Source of the DNA: Solicoccozyma terricola
Lineage: Eukaryota; Basidiomycota; Tremellomycetes; Filobasidiales; Piskurozymaceae
Direction: 5' to 3'
Assembly: GCA_001600875.1 (NCBI GenBank)
Contig: BCLD01000014.1
Coordinates: forward strand, 1-64,000
Length of the DNA: 64,000 nucleotides
Made by a program: the position numbers and the translations under genes. Every line of letters begins with the position of its first letter. The stretch's first letter is position 1. Shown in pieces: positions 9,697-63,593 of the stretch. The notes beneath the pieces were generated by a model. That model saw only the letters and a program-made list of their open reading frames with translations, was not told the DNA's origin and did not search any database.

Positions 9697-10964
9697 TCAC
9701 TTCCCAAACCGATGCCTTTCTACCCCCTTCACCCCTAGTCCCTTGACGACAAACAGGTCTCCACCCTGTGTCCTATCCTTCCTTCCACTCAGGTTAGAGT
9801 TTGCCGACGTGACGTAGAGATCGTTCATGTTCGGCCCTGTTGGCGGAGTCAGCGGGAGACCCCTCCCTCATCGTAACGCAACATCACCCACCGCCAAACA
9901 CGCAACAAGTCATATTCCACGCATTTGGAAACTCGATCACCATGTCTACTTGCCCTCCCGGTGTGAGGCGTATCACCTTGCCACCCTGCCACCTGGCCGA
10001 CCAGACGTGGTCGTGACCGTCCATACAGAGACCATCGGGATATCCCCATTGATCGACGTCCAAGTGGGAGAACACCTGGCGATTGGTCATTGCTCCGGTT
10101 GTCTGGAGGCATGATTAGCGTCCAACTCAAACACGCAACCCCGTCAAACTCACTACGTCGTAATCGAAGCGAAAGATTGTCGCTATCCAGCTGTCCGTAA
10201 AGTACCTGAAAATAACTTCCGTCTCAGCAACGAACCTGCCATCGTGAGCTACGAACTCACATGCTCTTCCCATCCATCGTCCAACCCATCCCATTCGTGC
10301 AGGTCACATTCTCCAGCATCGTCTTGACCTCCCCACCCTCCTCCAAACTATACAGCGTCCCAACGACATCGCCGATTTTGAACCCCATCGTCCCAGCCAA
10401 GAATCTCCCAGTAGGATCACATGCACCTTCGTTGAACCTGTTCGTCCCTTCTCGTAATGAGCTTTTCAGATAGGGTGTCAGGTTGCTGCTGGTGGCGCTA
10501 GTGCAAGTTGGGGGAAAAGGAAGTGAGGGCAGGATTTCAATGGCATGTTCGGTGGTGGCGATGAACTGAGGTCGTCAATGTCAGCTCGTATTCACCCTGC
10601 CCTACATCCTGCCTACCACTGACTCACCCCTTGAGCGACCCCCTTCCTCAACGCAATCGACGAAACCTTTCCTGGAAACGTTTCAAATCCATAGACCCCG
10701 GTTGATGGCTCGTACGTGTAGACTTTCCGGGACTCGATGTCGACAAAGTATAGTCTTTGATTCGACGGATCCTGCTCAAGTTCCAGTTATGTGCGACGCT
10801 ACGTTTCAAATTGGCAGCCAATGCTCACCCAGACGCAACCTGAAGCAAATAGTAGGTCAACCTCGGCTCACTCATCAACCGCACGAATAGCCTCCTCACC
10901 TTCACCCAGAGTACAGCGCGTTCTCAAGACAGGTTCAGAGACGATCACAACCATCTGGACGACT
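9697..10964 (-). CDS. SMP-30/gluconolactonase/regucalcin family lactonase
   Basis: The spliced protein (about 310 residues) is a six-bladed beta-propeller of the SMP-30/SGL family, metal-dependent hydrolases that open sugar lactones. Visible blades and motifs include LGEGCVWDP near the N-terminus, RLYFVDIESRKVYTYEP, NRFNEGACDPTGRFLAGTMG with the metal-site asparagine, CTNGMGWTMDGKSMYFTDSW, GYPDGLCMDGHDHVWSARW and the closing VFGGPNMNDLYVTSA. The N-terminal motif is split over three exons, one only 11 nt long (10829-10839). The start is the ATG at 10964 and the stop TGA is at 9697. In sugar catabolism such a lactonase follows an NAD-dependent dehydrogenase, which suits the SDR, transporter and TIM-barrel genes nearby. 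Confidence 0.9.
10829..10839 (-). other. 11-nt micro-exon of the lactonase gene
   Basis: GTTGCGTCTGG is bounded by a TTCAG acceptor and a GTGAGC donor. It joins GAA-G to GAT, giving the conserved LGEGCVWDP. Omitting it loses the family motif and the reading frame. Confidence 0.8.
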
Positions 10965-11202
10965 AGATGTTTCCTTGTTTCAGGATCTCTTCGAATTTGG
11001 CCCGCTCAAGATATATGAAGACGGGGGAAGGCCGACAAGCCATCAGACAAAAGCCGTGCGTCCGTTCTTTGATACATCCGTTGCTCGGCTTTAACTGTGA
11101 CAAAGGAGCGATCTCCGGGCAGCAGATCCGATACTCGCTCCTACCGGTCCGCAAAGTTGGCACTTCGATTGTGAACATAATTTTGGCACGGTCTCCACGA
11201 CC

Positions 11203-11375
11203 GGGCAAATTCACCCATCTGCGTGGCAAACAGTGAAGCGAACATGACCTTGAAACGGACTGGCAAATTCCCCCTCTCTGTGTGGCACACAGTGAAGCGA
11301 ACATGACTTTGAAACGGACTGGCAAACGCCCCCCCCCCCCCCCTCTGCGTGGCAATCAGTGAAGCGAACAAACAG
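11203..11375. repeat. Short tandem repeat, unit about 60 bp, 2.5 copies
   Basis: Units begin near 11221, 11280 and 11347 and share GTGGCA..CAGTGAAGCGAACA and TTGAAACGGACTGGCAAA. The second unit is lengthened by a run of about 14 C residues. The repeat lies in the 10965-11460 spacer between the lactonase start and the monooxygenase stop, where no gene is visible. Confidence 0.75.
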
Positions 11376-11460
11376 ACCAATGTATGGATTTTAAAAATGA
11401 CAGTATTTACATCTATCTACACCTTCCTCGTCCCAATGTCCAATTCTGCTCCTCCTCCTC

Positions 11461-13771
11461 CTACACCTCATAAGAACTCGGGGCCACTCCCTCCAACATT
11501 GCCTTGATACGCAGAGCAGTCCTCTTCGAGTGGTAACGGCCGTGCTGGAGGGTACCGACCATGATCCAGAAGTTGGGGACGCCCGTGCTACGCCAAGCTC
11601 CGTTGAGTTCCCCCTCCTTGTCCATACCCCAGATCGGCTTGCAACGGCTAGCAACTTGGTCTCCCAGAGTGCGGCGAACAGAGTCAATGGTGTTGGAGAA
11701 CCCTGTGGCGCAGACCACGAGATCATATTCCTGCTCCCGGTCGCCGTTCAATACGACCTTGTCCTTGGTAAAGCTGAGGCACACACCGTCAGCCTCCCGT
11801 CGTTTTGCAGATGCACCGCGCACTCACTGATCAATATATCCCTGCTCGACTTTTATCTTTCCGTTGATTATCTGATCGCACGCTCCGGCATCAAAGTAAA
11901 ACCCTCCATTCCTTGTATACCCAAGTGTCTGAACACCAGTCTCCCTTTGACCGAGCCACGTCTGGAAACCCTTTGCCTCCATCGCCTCGATCAACGGTTT
12001 GTCGAGCTCGGCGAGAGTTTTCGTCAAACGTCGACCAAGTTCTTCTGCCGGGCCGACAGGCATACTGTATGCGATTCGGTCTGCGACATCGAGGTTTGGT
12101 CGAGTGGGATCAGGCATGTACAGACCGCCGATAATCTGTAGATCACGCGAGTCAGCGTTGGCCCCCCCACCCCTGTCCCTCGGCACTCACTCTCGGAACA
12201 CTATGAGTCAAGCTCATGATGTAGGTCGGCGATCGCTGAAGAATGGTGACGTCGATATCTCGTCGAGCAAAGTCGTACGCTGTATCGAACCCGGAAGACG
12301 AAGTGCCGACAACCAAGACCTTTTTCCCAACCCATTCCCTCGCAGAATCATGCTCAGTTGAATGCCTGACGACGCCACTGAAGTCCTCCATACCAGGAAT
12401 CTTTGGCATCATCGGCACTCCAGCCAGAGACGTAGCCATAACGACGTGTTTGGGAGCCAACGTCCTCTCAGTACCTCCGCGGCTGATACCAACCTTCCAC
12501 TCCCCGGTCACTCTGTCTTGTTCCGCTGTGGTCACGTTTGCATCACACCAGTAAGGGAGCTCGAGAGATTCTGCGTAATATTCGAGCCAGTTTCCTAGCT
12601 TGGCGGCGGGAGTATAGACCGGCCAATGCTCTGGGTAAGGCATGTAAGGCAGGTGGTCTGGGGGGGACGTCAGGAAGGCCCAAGCGACAACAAGGAACTA
12701 GTTCGCTCACCAGCCCAATGAGGAAAGTGCAAGGATAACGCCTCGTAACGATTCCTCCAGTTATCCCCGATCCGCTTATTCCTCTCGATGATGAGGGTAG
12801 ACACGCCGAGGGCTTGAAGACGTGCTGCCATCATGAGTCCGCTGCGAGATTTCGGCGATTAAGCTACATCCCATCCCGAAATCGCCACCGACTCGCCACT
12901 CACTTGTGACCACCACCGACAATCAAAACCTCTGGATCCCTGTCATTGTAGGAGACATCCTCTGCTCTCTGATTCGCCCAGGACAATGACCCCGTCATGT
13001 GTCCGTCCCTGTTAGGCAGCTCCGGGAACCCCTTGAGGCCTTCAATTACCGTATGCAAGGTCCACGCTTTGACACCCTGTTGGGTTGGGATCAGATTGAC
13101 CACCCCGCTGGCATGGGCGACGGCTGTTTCGAAAGAAAAGTGCGCTTGGACGAATGCCAGGTCATGGTATGGGCTCTCGACCTTTGGGGCAGGGTCGATG
13201 AGCTTGAAGTTGGAGGCTGCTGTACGAGGGAGGAGATCCTGTAGTGGCCAACCGGCGGTCAGGAGACGATTGGAGCAGAAGCGGGGGCCTAAACTGCTCA
13301 CCTTGGCGGCGATCGCAATCCTGTCGCGGCCGTTGAAAGTCCTGTACTCCCAAGTAACGGCGATCTTGTCTCTCCAGACACCTGAGGGGGGAGAAAGCAA
13401 TGAGCCTGCAGTTCCTACACCCCGGCTGCCTACCGGAACCCACCGTCTACCAAGAACAAGCTTGTAAACTTTTCACCATCAGAAGACTCGGCAGCTTCAG
13501 TGAAGGCGTCGAGCCATGCGGTTGCGATCGATCTCGCATCGCTCGAGTCATCGAGCTTGACGCCGTATTTGTCGATTGTGGGCAGTTCAACCGGATGCTC
13601 GAACTCGTACATGTAATCATCTGCAACGCCCTTGCGTTCTGGTGAGGCCGGTAGTCCGGCAGGCGCAGAGATCACCTTGCTGGTCGGAACATGACCGGCA
13701 GAGGTAAGATCCGTGTTCTTGGAGCCAAGGGGATCGAGAATACCACGTGCTTGTTGAAGAAGGACGGTCAT
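11461..13771 (-). CDS. Flavin-containing monooxygenase with N-terminal NTF2-like domain
   Basis: A multi-exon gene encodes a protein of about 620 residues. Residues about 60-170 look like an NTF2/SnoaL-type domain (IATAWLDAFTEA, VWRDKIAVTWEYRTFNGRD). The frame there requires splicing at GAC-G/GTGGGT. Next come the FAD-binding Rossmann motif VLIVGGGHNGLMMAARL (joined across an intron), IGDNWRNRYEALSLH with the following HFPHWADHLPY region, the second nucleotide-binding motif VLVVGTSSSGFDTAYDFA and the late flavoprotein motif DLVVCATGFSNT. This layout is typical of fungal class-B monooxygenases of the FMO/Baeyer-Villiger type, which use NADPH and O2. The start is the ATG at 13771 and the stop is at 11461. 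It is divergent from the TIM-barrel gene, sharing a promoter of about 430 bp. Confidence 0.9.
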
Positions 13772-43436: not shown

Positions 43437-43487
<51 letters not shown>

Positions 43488-51460: not shown

Positions 51461-51508
<48 letters not shown>

Positions 51509-58191: not shown

Positions 58192-60839
58192 TCAATCCAC
58201 CACGATCGGTTCCGATCCATCACCCGTTCCACCTCCACTCATCCTCGTTCTCACCCTTCTCCCACCTGCACTCCCATCCGCCGGTCGTCGCACCTCGTTG
58301 TCGTTGTCGTCGTCGTCGTCGTCGATGATCTCAATCGGAGCCTCACGAGCTCCCACTGCATTTGTCGATTGTTGAATCGAAGTCGAAGCAGATCTCGATG
58401 CGTTCGACGAGGATGAAACGACACGACTTGTGCTTGAAATCGGACGAGATGGGATATCGTCGTACATCGGATAAGTGGACGCGGATCGAGATGGTGTGGC
58501 GTGTTGTGAAGCGACTTGCTCTTCGCCGGCTTTACGTTTAGCTCTTGCTTCAGTGTCCATTGCGTAGCTGTGAGAAGTGGACCGAAAAAAAAAGGAGTCG
58601 TCAACTCTGATAACCAAAACTCGCCACAACCCAGACACCACACCCACTTCACAGTCCATTCCCTCGCCAATTTATCATGCTCTGGTCTATTCGATTTAAA
58701 CAACTTGGCCACCGTCGGTTCCAACGGATCTTTCTCGTTCGGGTCTGTGAGTAGGGAGGAGAGGGAGAGCATCACTTTGAGGAGGGAAAGAGCAGGTGAC
58801 CAGTTGTTTTTGAGCGTCTGGAAGGGGGGGACATTGGATTAGGCATCGGCATCGAAGGACGGATACACGCCAACGTAGATTGTTCAACTCACGTCGAGAC
58901 CTGTCGGCGACGACGTCGGGGCATCAGCAAGCGAGACATCCACCCGACACGACGTCCTACAACTCACAGATACTCCCATCCTTGCTGACATTGCAATGAT
59001 AAACTGGCGTTTTGAATTTGAGTTTCGGTGGTGAAAAGCTGGCGAGCGGACCACAAAAAGGGTGAATACGAGAAAAGGATGAAGGGGGGAAACCGTCAGT
59101 TTTCGTGTGCTACCACCCAGCTCGATGGCCTAATTCCCGATGGTGCTCGCGGCGTTCGCTGACAAGAATATTCACTCGCGAGTGGCAGCATTGCTCGATG
59201 CTTTCGCCGAAGAATATTGCTCGTTAAGCCAGCCGAAGACAGAAAGCAGTATTGCCTCGCTGAGTTCGCCAAACAGAATATTGTTCGCTATGCTCGCGAG
59301 ACAGTCCGGCTCCCTCGGCTTGCAAAGGCAAAATGAAAAGCATTGCTCGCTATGCTCGCGCGAGAGAGTGTCGCTCGCGACACTCGCCAAAGATAGAAGA
59401 CAGTACTGCCTTGCTGCGTTCGCCGAACGCGAGAGACATTATTGCTCCCTTGGCTCGCGAAGCCAGAAGGCAGTATTGCGTCACTGCGGTCGCCAAAGAG
59501 AGTATTGTTCGCTAACTATGCTTGCGAGAGAGTATTGCTTGCTTGGCTCGCGAAGACAAAAGACAGTATTGCTCGCTATGCTCGCGAGACATTATTGCTC
59601 CCTTGGCTCGCGAACACAGAAGACAGTATTGCCTTGCTACGTTCGCCGAACGCGAGAGGCAGTAATGCTCTTGGCTTGCGAAGACAAAAAAAAAAGAGAA
59701 AGCATTGCTCGCTACATTCGCCAGAAGACAGAAGAGAGGATTACTCGCTTCGTTCGCGAAGAGACGAGACAGTATTGCTCGTTTCGCTCGCGATGACCAA
59801 AAAGACAGTATTACCTCGCTGCGTTGGCCCAACGAGAGTATTGCGAGCAATACTCGCCAAAAGACAGAAGAGAGTATTCTCGCTACGCTTGCTGACAAAA
59901 CATTGCTCTCTCGGCTCGCGAAGACAGTATTGATCGCTACGCTTGCCGAGGAAAGCATTGCTCGCAATGCTCGCGAAGAAATGAATGATCACTACGTTCG
60001 CAAGACAATTCGCGAAGAGAGTATTGCTCACTGCGTTCGTGGAAGACAGTGTTGCTCGCTTGGCTCGCAAAGACAGTATTGCTCCCTGCCTTTGCGGAAA
60101 ACAGGACTGCTCACTGTGTTTGCGGAAGACAGCATTGCTCACTTCGCTAGCGATTTCTCAGTACGTTCGCAAGACAATAGTCTTCGCTCCGCGAAGCAGA
60201 AGAGAGAAGACAGTAATGCTCGCTTCGCTCGCGAAGACAGTATTGCTCACTGCGTTCGCGGAAGAGATGAATGCTCGCTTCGCTCGCGAAGAGAGTATTG
60301 CTCACTGCGTTCGCGGAAGACATTATTGCTCGCTACGCTCGCGAGAGCTCCCTAACGGGAGCATAGTCTTCGCTCCGCGAAGACAGAAGAGATGAATGCT
60401 CGCTTCGCTCGCGAGCTCCCTACCGGGAGCCTATTCTTCGCTCCGCTCAGACCGGTATTGCTCGCTCCGCTCGCCGCTCGCCTCCACTCACGGATAATCC
60501 CCCGGCAACGTAATCCCCACCTCAAACCTCCCACCTTCATACGGACTCCCCGCTGGACCAGGCAACCAACCGGTCCAATTATAAATATTCGCTTCATCAT
60601 GAATGAGTATCATACCACCTGTATCTTCTTTACGTAGATCTGATATTTCTTTATTGATTCGTTTGATTGTTGTCTGGTGGGGTGGGGATGGGGGGGGGAG
60701 GCGGGGAGGCGGGGAGGTGGGGATAAGGAAGAGGAGGGTGGTGGGTGTGGGTGTATTAGCTAGCCGTCGTAATAAACAACCCCCGGTAGGAAAGGTGTGG
60801 AAAGGGGTCACTAGGAATCACCTTATTCGGAGGAGCCAT
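58192..60839 (-). CDS. UBE2E-like ubiquitin-conjugating enzyme (E2) with SIM-like tail
   Basis: Six exons (60839-60822, 60673-60492, 59038-58968, 58900-58893, 58817-58648, 58567-58192) encode 274 residues. Residues 1-152 are a UBC fold: TTIKRINKEISDLRKED, WTGWLPGPAGSPYEGGRFEV, PFSPPKLKFKTPVYHCN, then ICLDTLKNNWSPALSLLKV and LAREWTVNYAM. HCN instead of HPN before the catalytic Cys91, and the NRPEHDKLAREW helix, are UBE2E-class marks. The catalytic cysteine codon is split, its last two bases sitting in an 8-nt exon. The 120-residue tail is Ser-rich, with APIEIIDDDDDD (about 226-237) and a terminal PIVVD, both like SUMO-interacting motifs. Intron 2 is 1,453 nt and filled with repeats. It is divergent from Tof1. 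Confidence 0.92.
58893..58900 (-). other. 8-nt micro-exon completing the E2 active-site cysteine codon
   Basis: GTCTCGAC is flanked by a CCGACAG acceptor and a GTGAGT donor. With the T ending exon 3 it gives TGT CTC GAC, the Cys-Leu-Asp of SICLD. Flanking introns are 67 and 75 nt. Confidence 0.85.
59140..60480 (-). repeat. Intronic GC-rich quasi-palindromic repeat array 1
   Basis: This array of about 1.34 kb occupies nearly all of intron 2 of the E2 gene (59039-60491). On the plus strand variants of TTGCTCGCTTCGCTCGCGAA, spaced by GACAGTA or GACAGAAGA, recur dozens of times with period about 27-50 bp. At the donor side (60347-60384) sits a module of two hairpins: GCTCCC-TAAC-GGGAGC and GTCTTCGC-TCC-GCGAAGAC. 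A second GCTCCC-TACC-GGGAGC hairpin follows at 60415-60430. The array starts about 10 nt from the donor and ends about 100 nt from the acceptor. Long antisense open frames across it are a by-product of few stop codons. Confidence 0.85.
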
Positions 60840-61299
60840 ATTCGCCAGTCGTCCCTGAATACCCCTATCCAAAATGAACGTGAAGAGAGAGATATGTTAT
60901 ATGTTATACCCTGTTTATCGTAGTAACCCCTCACGACTCAACGCCACTACCCGGGGTGGGGATGGGAAACCAACCTGTGAAAATGACTCACCAGGACGAT
61001 GCGACGATGTGGTTGTTCTAGGTGATGCTTGTGGATGTGTGAGTGTATGAGAGGATGGGGTGGTGGTGGTGGTGGTGGTGGATGGAACGATGTGATAGCT
61101 GTTGATATATGTATACCTCCCATCCCCTCGCCTCCCCCCCTCCCTTCCCATCCCACTTTGAATATTCCGATCACGTGATTCAATCAAGACAGAGACGCGT
61201 CCACGCTCAACCAGTTGGATGGGATGGGATGGAGGTAGGTATAAGGGTATCCACCGTCCACATCCCACATCGAACACTCCCACCCCTCCCCCCACCGCC
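60840..61299. promoter_or_regulatory. Bidirectional promoter between the E2 and Tof1 genes
   Basis: 460 bp separate the two start codons. TCACGTGA at 61171-61178 is a palindromic bHLH-type site. A TGG microsatellite lies at about 61060-61083, and a GGGAT tandem near 61217-61231 recalls that before RPS28 (56152-56174). Shared control of the two genes is possible but unproven. Confidence 0.4.
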
Positions 61300-63537
61300 A
61301 TGTCATCATCCCCTCTCCCCACCATAATAGACGACATCATACCACTCGATCAATCACAATATGATATCGACCAAGATCATATCATGCTCGACGACGACGA
61401 CGGCGACGAAGAGGGGGAGGAACGCGTGGATAGGGAACATGTGTTTATGCCGGTTGTTCAGAGTTTGGTAGCGGCGTTGGGGGGATTCGAGGTGGGTGTG
61501 GGGGGGGAGCGGAGCGAGGCGAGCGGAGCGAGCATTTGTCGCGAGCGAAGAGAGCATTCGTCGCGAGAGAAGCGAGCATTCGTCTTCTGTCTTCGCGGAG
61601 CGAAGACCATGCTCCCGTCAGGGAGCTCTTCTTCCGCGAGCGAAGCGAGCAATAACTCCCTGAGCGTAGCGAAGAATATATGTCTTCTGCGAGCGAAGCG
61701 AGCAACAACTCCATGAGCGTAGCGAAGAATATATGTCTTCTGCGAGCGAAGCGAGCAATAACTCCTGAGCGTAGCGAAGAATATATCTCTCCTGCCAGCA
61801 GAGCGAGCAATAATGCTCACACTAATGCTCACACTATAGCTCGTTTCGAGCACAGCAAGGCTTATCCGTTGCGAACTTTACAACGAGCTCATCTTTGCAT
61901 AAACCTTTTTATTTCCTAAAATCCCTCGCAGGAAATAACCGATCCAACAACCGGCAACCTTACAACAATCTACCTACCTGGTGATTCCGCTCTTCCCGTA
62001 CTTCGTTCTTTGAAACGATTATGGAGAAAAGACGATACAGATGATGAAAGGACGGTTGCTCGTTGTTTTGCGAAAACGGGGTTAGCAAGGGAGTTGATTG
62101 CGTTACTTGGGGAGTGTGCCGAGAGAGGTGAAAGTGGGAGGAAGTTGGCGTTGGCAGCAGGTGTGTGGGGGTGGGGTGGGAAGGGGTGGGAAGAGGTGGT
62201 ACATCATCATCCCGCGAGGCTGATTAATTACCTACCCTCCACCATATCTCTCAATTCCAACAGCGGATCTCCTCGCTGCTCTTACATGGCCAATAGACGT
62301 CTCTGCTGAACTTAAAGAATTAGAAGATGAACCGGAAGTCGTTACGGATTATGCGAGTTTGTTGAAAAGTCAAGTCGAGTACAAAGTGAGTTGGCGGGGT
62401 GGGGTAGATGAGGAGGTTCTGCGGTCGGCGGTCGGCGGTCGGCGGCCTGCAACTGATATCCACCAACGGACGACAGGCTATGATCCTTCGTTCTTCAGAT
62501 ACAATTCGTTGTCTGATGGTACTCATGATCCCAAGTCTTGCGAAACAAAATCGGTGAGCGAGAAACCAAATTCCCCTTCACGACCCCCCCCCCCCCACCT
62601 TCCCTACAGCTTACCGTTCATCAAACACACAGCAACCGAACCGACAAAGACCGACGAATCGTCTCACTAATCCTTCATCTAATCCGTAACCTTCTCTCAA
62701 TCCGTGACCCACCATCAACCCTATCCTCAACTTCCTCCGGTCTCGAATTATCACGTCTACAATCAGAATTAATCAATCAATTAGAAATCAATGGGTTTTT
62801 AACCCTATTATTGACACTCGGTGGGATGGCAGGGAAAAGTGAATGGAATCATGTTAATGTGTTGGTTTTGGATATAATGTGGTCGATGTATAAAGGAGTA
62901 AGAGCGAGTGATTTGATAAAGGATCAAGCAAAGGTGGGTGGGGGTGGGGTGGGGTGGGGAAGGTTCGAAGTCACTCTTCCAGGTTCAGATCAACTGTTCC
63001 ACGTCTCTCCCTCGCATCACGCTGACTACCGGCCGTGGGGATGTACAGGCACCAATCGAAAACCTAACCAAGCTGTTACAAGAAGAAGATCAATACCGTA
63101 GATCAAATCAACGGAATGGTAATAGTCGACATTCGAGATTCGGGACGACAATTTCAATTCAATCTGTGAGTTGGGAAGTGAGTTAAGCCGCATACCACGT
63201 CCACTGACACATCGACGCGAACCCACGCCCCAGGGTGGAGCGAAATACGTTCTACATAAACAAAAAGCCATCTCAGCATCAGCCGCTTCAATCCTAGATG
63301 GAAATAAACGACAACGTGCTACGAACATAAAACGACAAGATGACGGTTTCATGGCAGCTGCTAGTGATTTGAGTGTCGAGGCGTTGGAGATATTGCAAGC
63401 GTTTGCGGTGAAATTCATCGATTCGTGCTTCAATGGTGAGCCCATTTTCGGGACGAAGTGCTCGACGCTCCAGCGCTCAGCGCTCCTAGATAGTAAGAGT
63501 TGACAATGCCGCCCCCCCCCCCCCCCCCCCCCCCCCG

Positions 63538-63593
<56 letters not shown>

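Follow-up and report, generated by a model that had tools for sequence, protein, structure and literature searches.

The E2 ubiquitin-conjugating gene of Solicoccozyma terricola carries an intron that is many times longer than its neighbours and is largely built from related short repeats, which raises the question of what made this one intron grow. We addressed it in the window, the whole 64,000-nt stretch analysed here (positions 1-64000 of contig C14), and in the genome from which it comes (23.9 Mb, 33 contigs). Protein comparison agrees with a placement in the Tremellomycetes: for one protein, a metagenome protein at 81% identity ranks first, followed at 67-70% by Saitozyma, Kwoniella, Papiliotrema, Tremella and Cryptotrichosporon. 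The E2 locus contains the following features.

59039..60491, minus strand: array-bearing intron of the E2 ubiquitin-conjugating gene, 1,453 nt, with donor GTGAGT at 60491 and acceptor CCAG at 59039
59140..60476, minus strand: E2 array of 39 units, all sense, with consensus TTCGCGAGCGAAGCGAGCAATA plus a T/C-rich linker
60492..60673, minus strand: E2 exon 5' of the array intron, ending ...LPGDYP
58968..59038, minus strand: E2 exon 3' of the array intron, reading FSPPKLKFKTPVYH...
60347..60382, minus strand: E2 copy of a two-hairpin module, CTTCGCGGAGCGAAG plus GCTCCCGTTAGGGAGC

The intron boundaries given in the preliminary description, 59039-60491, are correct. Donor and acceptor are found on the minus strand, and removal of the intron rejoins a conserved protein without a gap (...LPGDYP/FSPPKLKF...). 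Pfam UQ_con spans residues 11-147 of this protein, including the array junction near residue 67, and an E2 from the PDB aligns ungapped through the same junction. A self-trained gene model calls the identical intron. Stops lie inside the translated frame and the longest open stretches of the array are 158 codons (sense) and 229 codons (antisense), so the 1,453 nt are not translatable straight through. Further along the same gene, an 8-nt microexon (GTCTCGAC; 58893-58900, minus strand) is required for the conserved ICLDTLK.

Intron lengths were taken from a simple home-made gene finder, which was trained on 264 kb of C14, where it predicted 79 genes and 580 introns (median length 69 nt), and was then re-run with arrays forbidden in exons; it sometimes merges adjacent genes, and protein identity was therefore weighted more. 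By this measure the E2 intron is indeed oversized, as had been claimed, since only 28 of the 580 model introns in the 264 kb exceed 200 nt. About 92% of it is repeat, in the form of 39 units (score >3) of ~28 nt in one orientation only, which run from intron nt 16 to nt 1352 with a median spacing of 28 nt. Positions scoring >11 number 30 in sense, 0 in antisense and 5 in the reversed string, with a mean of 0.015 over 200 block shuffles. At ≤3 mismatches, the window contains 19 occurrences of the 20-mer core (14 in the E2 intron, 5 in the neighbour's intron) against an expectation of 0.01. Rfam, at gathering thresholds, gave no match anywhere in the window. The repeats had been called quasi-palindromic. 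This is apt for the DNA (CTTCGCGAGCGAAG, CTTCGCGGAGCGAAG, GCTCCCGTTAGGGAGC) but not for the RNA, where an ordinary unit folds like shuffled sequence: z was -0.28 for the E2 unit stretch in sense and -1.41 in antisense, and -0.13 and 0.28, respectively, for a stretch of the neighbouring TOF1 array. The stretch with both hairpin modules, in contrast, folds better than shuffles (z -2.13).

This second array had been missed by the preliminary description. It lies in TOF1/Timeless, divergent from E2, and is sense to TOF1; the name TOF1, like RPN10, HEM1, ERG20, DAP1, URA3 and PDH-E2 below, is one that we presume from the Pfam family of the protein.

61300..61491, plus strand: first coding exon of TOF1, MSSSPLPTIIDD..., 64 codons, start assigned by eye
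61492..61931, plus strand: first coding intron of TOF1/Timeless, 440 nt, start assigned by eye, holding the second array
61517..61813, plus strand: TOF1 array of 9 units, all sense to TOF1
61591-61626, plus strand: TOF1 copy of the two-hairpin module, matching the E2 module

Only 25 nt of intron separate the first coding exon of TOF1 from its array. Arrays thus flank a shared promoter region at E2/TOF1 (window 59039-61931), as they do at ERG20/DAP1 (L053) and probably at actin/RPN10 (L037), and within these divergent pairs each array follows the sense direction of its own gene.

The two arrays belong to a family that is dispersed over the genome. Searching with the 20-mer core, as the preliminary description had proposed, returned 639 matches at ≤3 mismatches against 16 for the backward control, and GAGCGNAGCGAGCA returned 557 against 15; the core is nearly mirror-symmetric, which makes backward controls imperfect for this repeat family. 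The 36-nt two-hairpin module has 42 genome matches at ≤3 mismatches, on many contigs, and none in the backward control. An eye count of ~17 clusters on contig C1 (2.43 Mb) extrapolates roughly to ~170 loci genome-wide, and the 4 arrays in the 200 kb beside the window (of which ~21.6 kb are N) extrapolate, equally roughly, to several hundred. By extrapolation, then, the family probably comprises 170 or more loci. To judge from sequence likeness, it seems to exist outside the S. terricola genome too: the only matches to the translated sense array were two predicted metagenome proteins, P0160 (149 aa) and P0161 (223 aa), which by eye look like translated units plus the hairpin module. A scan of viral contigs gave 10 contigs with one match apiece. 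We found no account of such arrays in the literature searched, from which the 15-mer GCGAGCGAAGCGAGC was likewise absent.

To describe their setting we inspected 30 repeat loci, 28 of which have readable flanks (L007 and L034 are flanked by N). The sample consisted of every array of at least two units within the 264 kb (6 in all); 6 distinct arrays from loci of the automatic 20-mer search; 11 arrays in ten regions, one per contig, picked from the 20-mer matches ignoring context; and 7 loci in six C1 regions selected for having no GTGAGT match. The HEM1 locus in the sample is a single unit, not an array. What we observe are arrays of units and hairpins in predicted early introns, in sense orientation and a few nucleotides behind the 5' splice site. 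Predicted introns in gene-sense orientation account for 24 of the 28 readable loci, and both splice sites are present in 23 of these; at the 24th, RPN10, the sequence piece stops before the acceptor. Four of the 23 (L035, L038, L050 and DAP1) were bounded by eye and later backed by Pfam. Three further loci are sense but unproven, namely an array 5' of the actin ATG, one that adjoins the start of a zinc-cluster-like gene (L052) and one with a good donor but without coding evidence (L001). The sole antisense array among the 28 (L003) lies inside a Rad51-like gene. Two others, C14:88724 and L038, were antisense in the first model and were reassigned post hoc on protein evidence as sense introns of genes on the other strand, GLTP and URA3, respectively; a search for such an opposite-strand gene at L003 found none. 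Even in the C1 regions chosen for lacking GTGAGT, 6 of 7 loci are sense coding introns and one is a probable leader intron.

Protein families were identified for all 10 array-gene proteins of a first set (UQ_con, L22e, GLTP, lipoyl, MARVEL, Xpo1/IBN_N, RNase PH, GTP cyclohydrolase II, OMP decarboxylase and, slightly below cut-off, Sds3), for 4 of 9 in a second (VWA (RPN10), RGS, Timeless and, below cut-off, Rad51) and for 8 of 8 in a third (Vps36, Chs7, Cyt-b5, BCS1_N, aminotransferase, polyprenyl synthetase, NmrA, actin). In 12 genes the domain itself crosses the array junction: UQ_con, L22e, lipoyl, MARVEL, RNase PH, IBN_N, OMP decarboxylase, Sds3 (slightly below cut-off), Vps36, Chs7, polyprenyl synthetase and NmrA. 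The conserved genes bearing arrays include E2, TOF1, RPL22, PDH-E2, URA3, RPN10, HEM1 and ERG20. Moreover, the even spread over intergenic DNA that the preliminary description had named as evidence against an intron-bound family is absent for arrays, none of the 6 on the 264 kb being intergenic where intergenic DNA makes up 26%. Isolated weak matches outside arrays (score >9, 264 kb, n=15) are background-like, with 7 in exons, 4 in intergenic DNA and 4 in introns.

Within introns, the arrays lie close to the donor. In the 23 introns with both splice sites, the 5' gap from donor to array is 2-60 nt (median 16) and the 3' gap from array to acceptor 74-554 nt (median 139). Genome-wide, GTGAGT lies ≤30 nt upstream of a sense unit in 77 matches representing 74 distinct donors (backward control 2), as against 4 matches upstream of antisense units. 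The rearranged hexamer GTGGAT gave 7 matches, 4 of them with GTGAGT inside the match, and ACTCAC gave 4 with a backward control of 34, a value explained by the nearly mirror-symmetric core. A spacing of 200-230 nt from donor to unit gave 65 matches (control 4) because long arrays place later units at that range. The comparison of 77 with 4 is independent of any gene model. It therefore bears on whether the arrays could be an artefact of assembly or prediction, a collapsed repeat surrounded by false introns; the intron calls do depend on a home-made model and four introns were bounded by eye, yet conserved proteins rejoin exactly over the arrays and the donor comparison needs no such calls, so that we regard an artefact as very improbable.

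Arrays also lie mostly in early introns. All 15 array genes whose start is visible have the array intron ≤300 coding nt from the ATG, after 22-98 codons. The proportion is 18.7% among 572 introns (Fisher p 2.8e-11) and 9 of 24 among the other long introns (p 9e-5); merged gene models enlarge the offsets of ordinary introns, and the contrast is therefore somewhat overstated. Some of the 15 starts were placed by eye, and L004, L033 and L038, which have no clear start, were excluded. Outside this test, arrays follow 12 or more codons in DAP1, ~42 in ERG20, 50 in CHS7, ~69 in BCS1, 80 in HEM1 and ~104 in the NmrA-like gene, the last slightly beyond 300 nt. Long first introns are common in eukaryotes, as stated in the part of PMC2518113 available to us, and the 5' bias may hence partly reflect where long introns are tolerated. 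We rejected the idea that ordinary donors supply the seed: at the 5' end of 532 short introns there is only a slight excess of GCGAG-type words (GCGAG 26 sense versus 18 antisense).

Within introns the arrays have grown locally. The nearest relative of a unit lies in its own array for 130.2 of 243 units, where 12.7 are expected, and mean unit distance is 13.9 within and 15.1 between arrays (of 36 positions), so that much local duplication overlies an old common stock. Units are arranged head-to-tail with commonest spacings of 28 and 27 nt. Together with the 24 of 28 loci in sense introns, these relationships lend good support to the earlier suggestion of an intron-resident expanding element. 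Array edges are diffuse, which leaves no defined insertion point; the 3,365 nt beyond the detected ends contain 12 decayed sense matches and no antisense match. After the array, L031 and L035 share 57 nt at 79%, short matches which indicate that arrays contain additional common modules. In a HEM1-like gene (L051:1297-1412), a 116-nt intron contains exactly one unit, continuous with donor GTGAGC, and is possibly the starting stage of an array. Higher unit scores lie on the donor side of the E2 intron (rho -0.42 over the intron, -0.53 over the array). Beyond E2, freshness at the donor end is suggestive, and we do not claim it as general: for 12 of the 15 introns the first half outscores the last (Wilcoxon p 0.03), the permutation p for mean rho across introns is 0.08, first versus last unit gives p 0.72, and for arrays only the count is 13 of 20 (p 0.08) with rho negative in 10 of 20.

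Such growth is what would be expected of a neutral minisatellite, in which random seeds from template switching at the DNA level expand wherever they are harmless, early introns being the roomiest places and antisense or intergenic arrays being lost. The tandem, head-to-tail ~28-nt units, their degenerate variants, the local amplification and the single-unit HEM1 intron all resemble this, as do the longer first introns of many eukaryotes. Minisatellites differ from the arrays, however, in that here one related family recurs at many loci with fixed orientation and position relative to the donor. Intergenic DNA, presumably the most harmless place, holds none of the six arrays, and splice toxicity is not greater on the antisense strand. 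Indeed, splice toxicity of antisense arrays was rejected as the cause of orientation, because the 23 arrays have more acceptor-like words (YAG, 186 sense versus 148) and donor-like words (GTRNGY, 71 versus 10) on the sense strand, making sense, if anything, the riskier orientation; no splicing reason for it was found in these arrays. Chance insertion followed by tolerance would not give so regular a position and orientation, no array being proven intergenic, and we consider neutral expansion rather unlikely. Decoy 5' splice sites were rejected as well: sites scoring >5 number 34 in sense and 15 in antisense, yet simple shuffles give 35.0.

The preliminary description had also called the repeats introner-like. 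Dispersal, confinement to genes and sense orientation agree with this, as introners and introner-like elements (ILEs) are multi-copy families confined to genes and found in introns. Introners, however, are similar at both ends and supply or co-opt splice sites, whereas here tandem ~28-nt units do not form the intron ends, the donor gap varies from 2 to 60 nt and the sequences that follow the array in 16 introns have no 3' end in common (there are short local matches in 3 pairs, one of them poly-C). Judged by sequence, the arrays are not classical introners, because a common 3' intron end is missing. That an element inserted into an exon, created the intron and brought its donor, the array being its expanded body, could account for the continuity of unit and donor GTGAGC in HEM1 and for paralogues of E2 and PDH-E2 in this genome that run without a break at the matching codon. 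Paralogue gaps are uninformative for old duplications, though; splice sites and 3' ends vary among the introns, and the non-array part (5' plus 3' gap) is at least 91 nt in the 23 introns, enough for a normal intron. We therefore hold intron creation to be improbable, and insertion into existing introns more likely. Fungal introners lack target-site duplications and terminal inverted repeats (Gozashti et al. 2022, PMC9860276, in its available part), and fungal ILEs are also covered, in the part at hand, by Collemare et al. 2015 (PMC4457414). In the accessible portion of the 2022 survey, Pezizomycotina are the only fungi named among eight introner-containing groups, to which 25 further groups from aquatic partial genomes are added (PMC9860276). 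A DNA transposon or MITE would give separate copies with defined termini, in either orientation and outside genes as well; in contrast, the arrays are tandem and of varying length, with one antisense among 28 readable loci.

Unrelated loci follow one rule of sense orientation, early position and donor proximity, and in divergent pairs this rule turns with the gene; hence either copying or retention must act through transcription or the transcript. It may thus be the RNA containing the repeats that leads to their copying or retention. One form of this would be selfish spread, in which repeat RNA or cDNA of spliced introns templates new copies at donor ends without benefit to the host. The sense-only, intron-only arrays fit it, as do the two-hairpin module common to loci on many contigs (42 matches) and orientation that tracks the gene at E2/TOF1, ERG20/DAP1 and probably actin/RPN10. 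No reverse transcriptase was noticed with the arrays in inspecting these loci, and arrays sit 5' whereas cDNA copying should favour 3' parts of genes. Counted in its favour, the spread of fungal introners has been interpreted as reverse splicing (PMC9860276, available part). We regard selfish spread as less likely than not, but as the strongest of the alternatives and close in probability to retention.

Our preferred reading, to which we give a probability of about 40%, is that the repeats of the E2 intron belong to a dispersed tandem-repeat family, which colonises the donor end of early introns and is retained as an intron element. A seed would enter behind the donor of an already existing early intron, would expand by slippage, unequal exchange or gene conversion, and the expanded array would be tolerated since it is spliced out. 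Our best guess for its retention, by analogy, is that it may be a promoter-proximal intron element whose action depends on orientation, much as in intron-mediated enhancement; retention as such an early-intron signal we would place slightly ahead of transcript-coupled copying, the evidence fitting both. A little more tentatively, the family may parasitise or serve existing introns, finding early donor ends through transcription or splicing and copying itself in sense only, while neither creating introns nor employing splice sites of its own.

Two further known systems offer comparison. Eddy and Maizels reportedly described, in 2008, that human first introns carry G-quadruplex motifs at their 5' end; these motifs resemble the arrays in being strand-specific and just behind the first donor, whereas the arrays have no G skew; an R-loop cause was likewise rejected, array GC skew being 0.01. 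In intron-mediated enhancement, the signals are redundant intron motifs near the transcription start (PMC8157754, available part). The arrays are likewise promoter-proximal and sense-stranded, position being measured here from the start codon (15 of 15), and may by this analogy enhance expression. Plant enhancement signals are short motifs, whereas the arrays are long and pinned to the donor (PMC8157754, in the same part).

If the more tentative reading is right, existing early introns of housekeeping genes lengthen by a mode of growth distinct from introners and from ordinary transposon insertion. Intron growth is usually attributed to random transposon insertion; here it is restricted to a single end of early introns and a single strand, and the genes concerned are conserved. 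The probably 170 or more loci (extrapolated) would amount to a natural experiment on whether transcription or splicing can steer where new DNA settles, and they also allow one to ask whether early introns are selected for repeated signals.

Other repeats occur in the window. Long poly-C tracts (gene strand) directly precede 3' splice sites at 63512-63593, 43437-43485 and 51462-51507. The 264 kb contain 59 C/G runs of at least 10 nt, of which 23 are sense C no more than 30 nt from a predicted 3' splice site, and runs in introns are sense in 35 cases and antisense in 10; sense poly-C near acceptors means that the opposite intron end also has a strand-specific expanding repeat. A predicted 512-nt intron at 10955-11466 has its own 59-nt tandem repeat, with no match to the family core. 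Finally, positions 1-95 are a telomere-type (CCTAAC)n repeat, so that the contig end at which the window starts is probably also the end of a chromosome.
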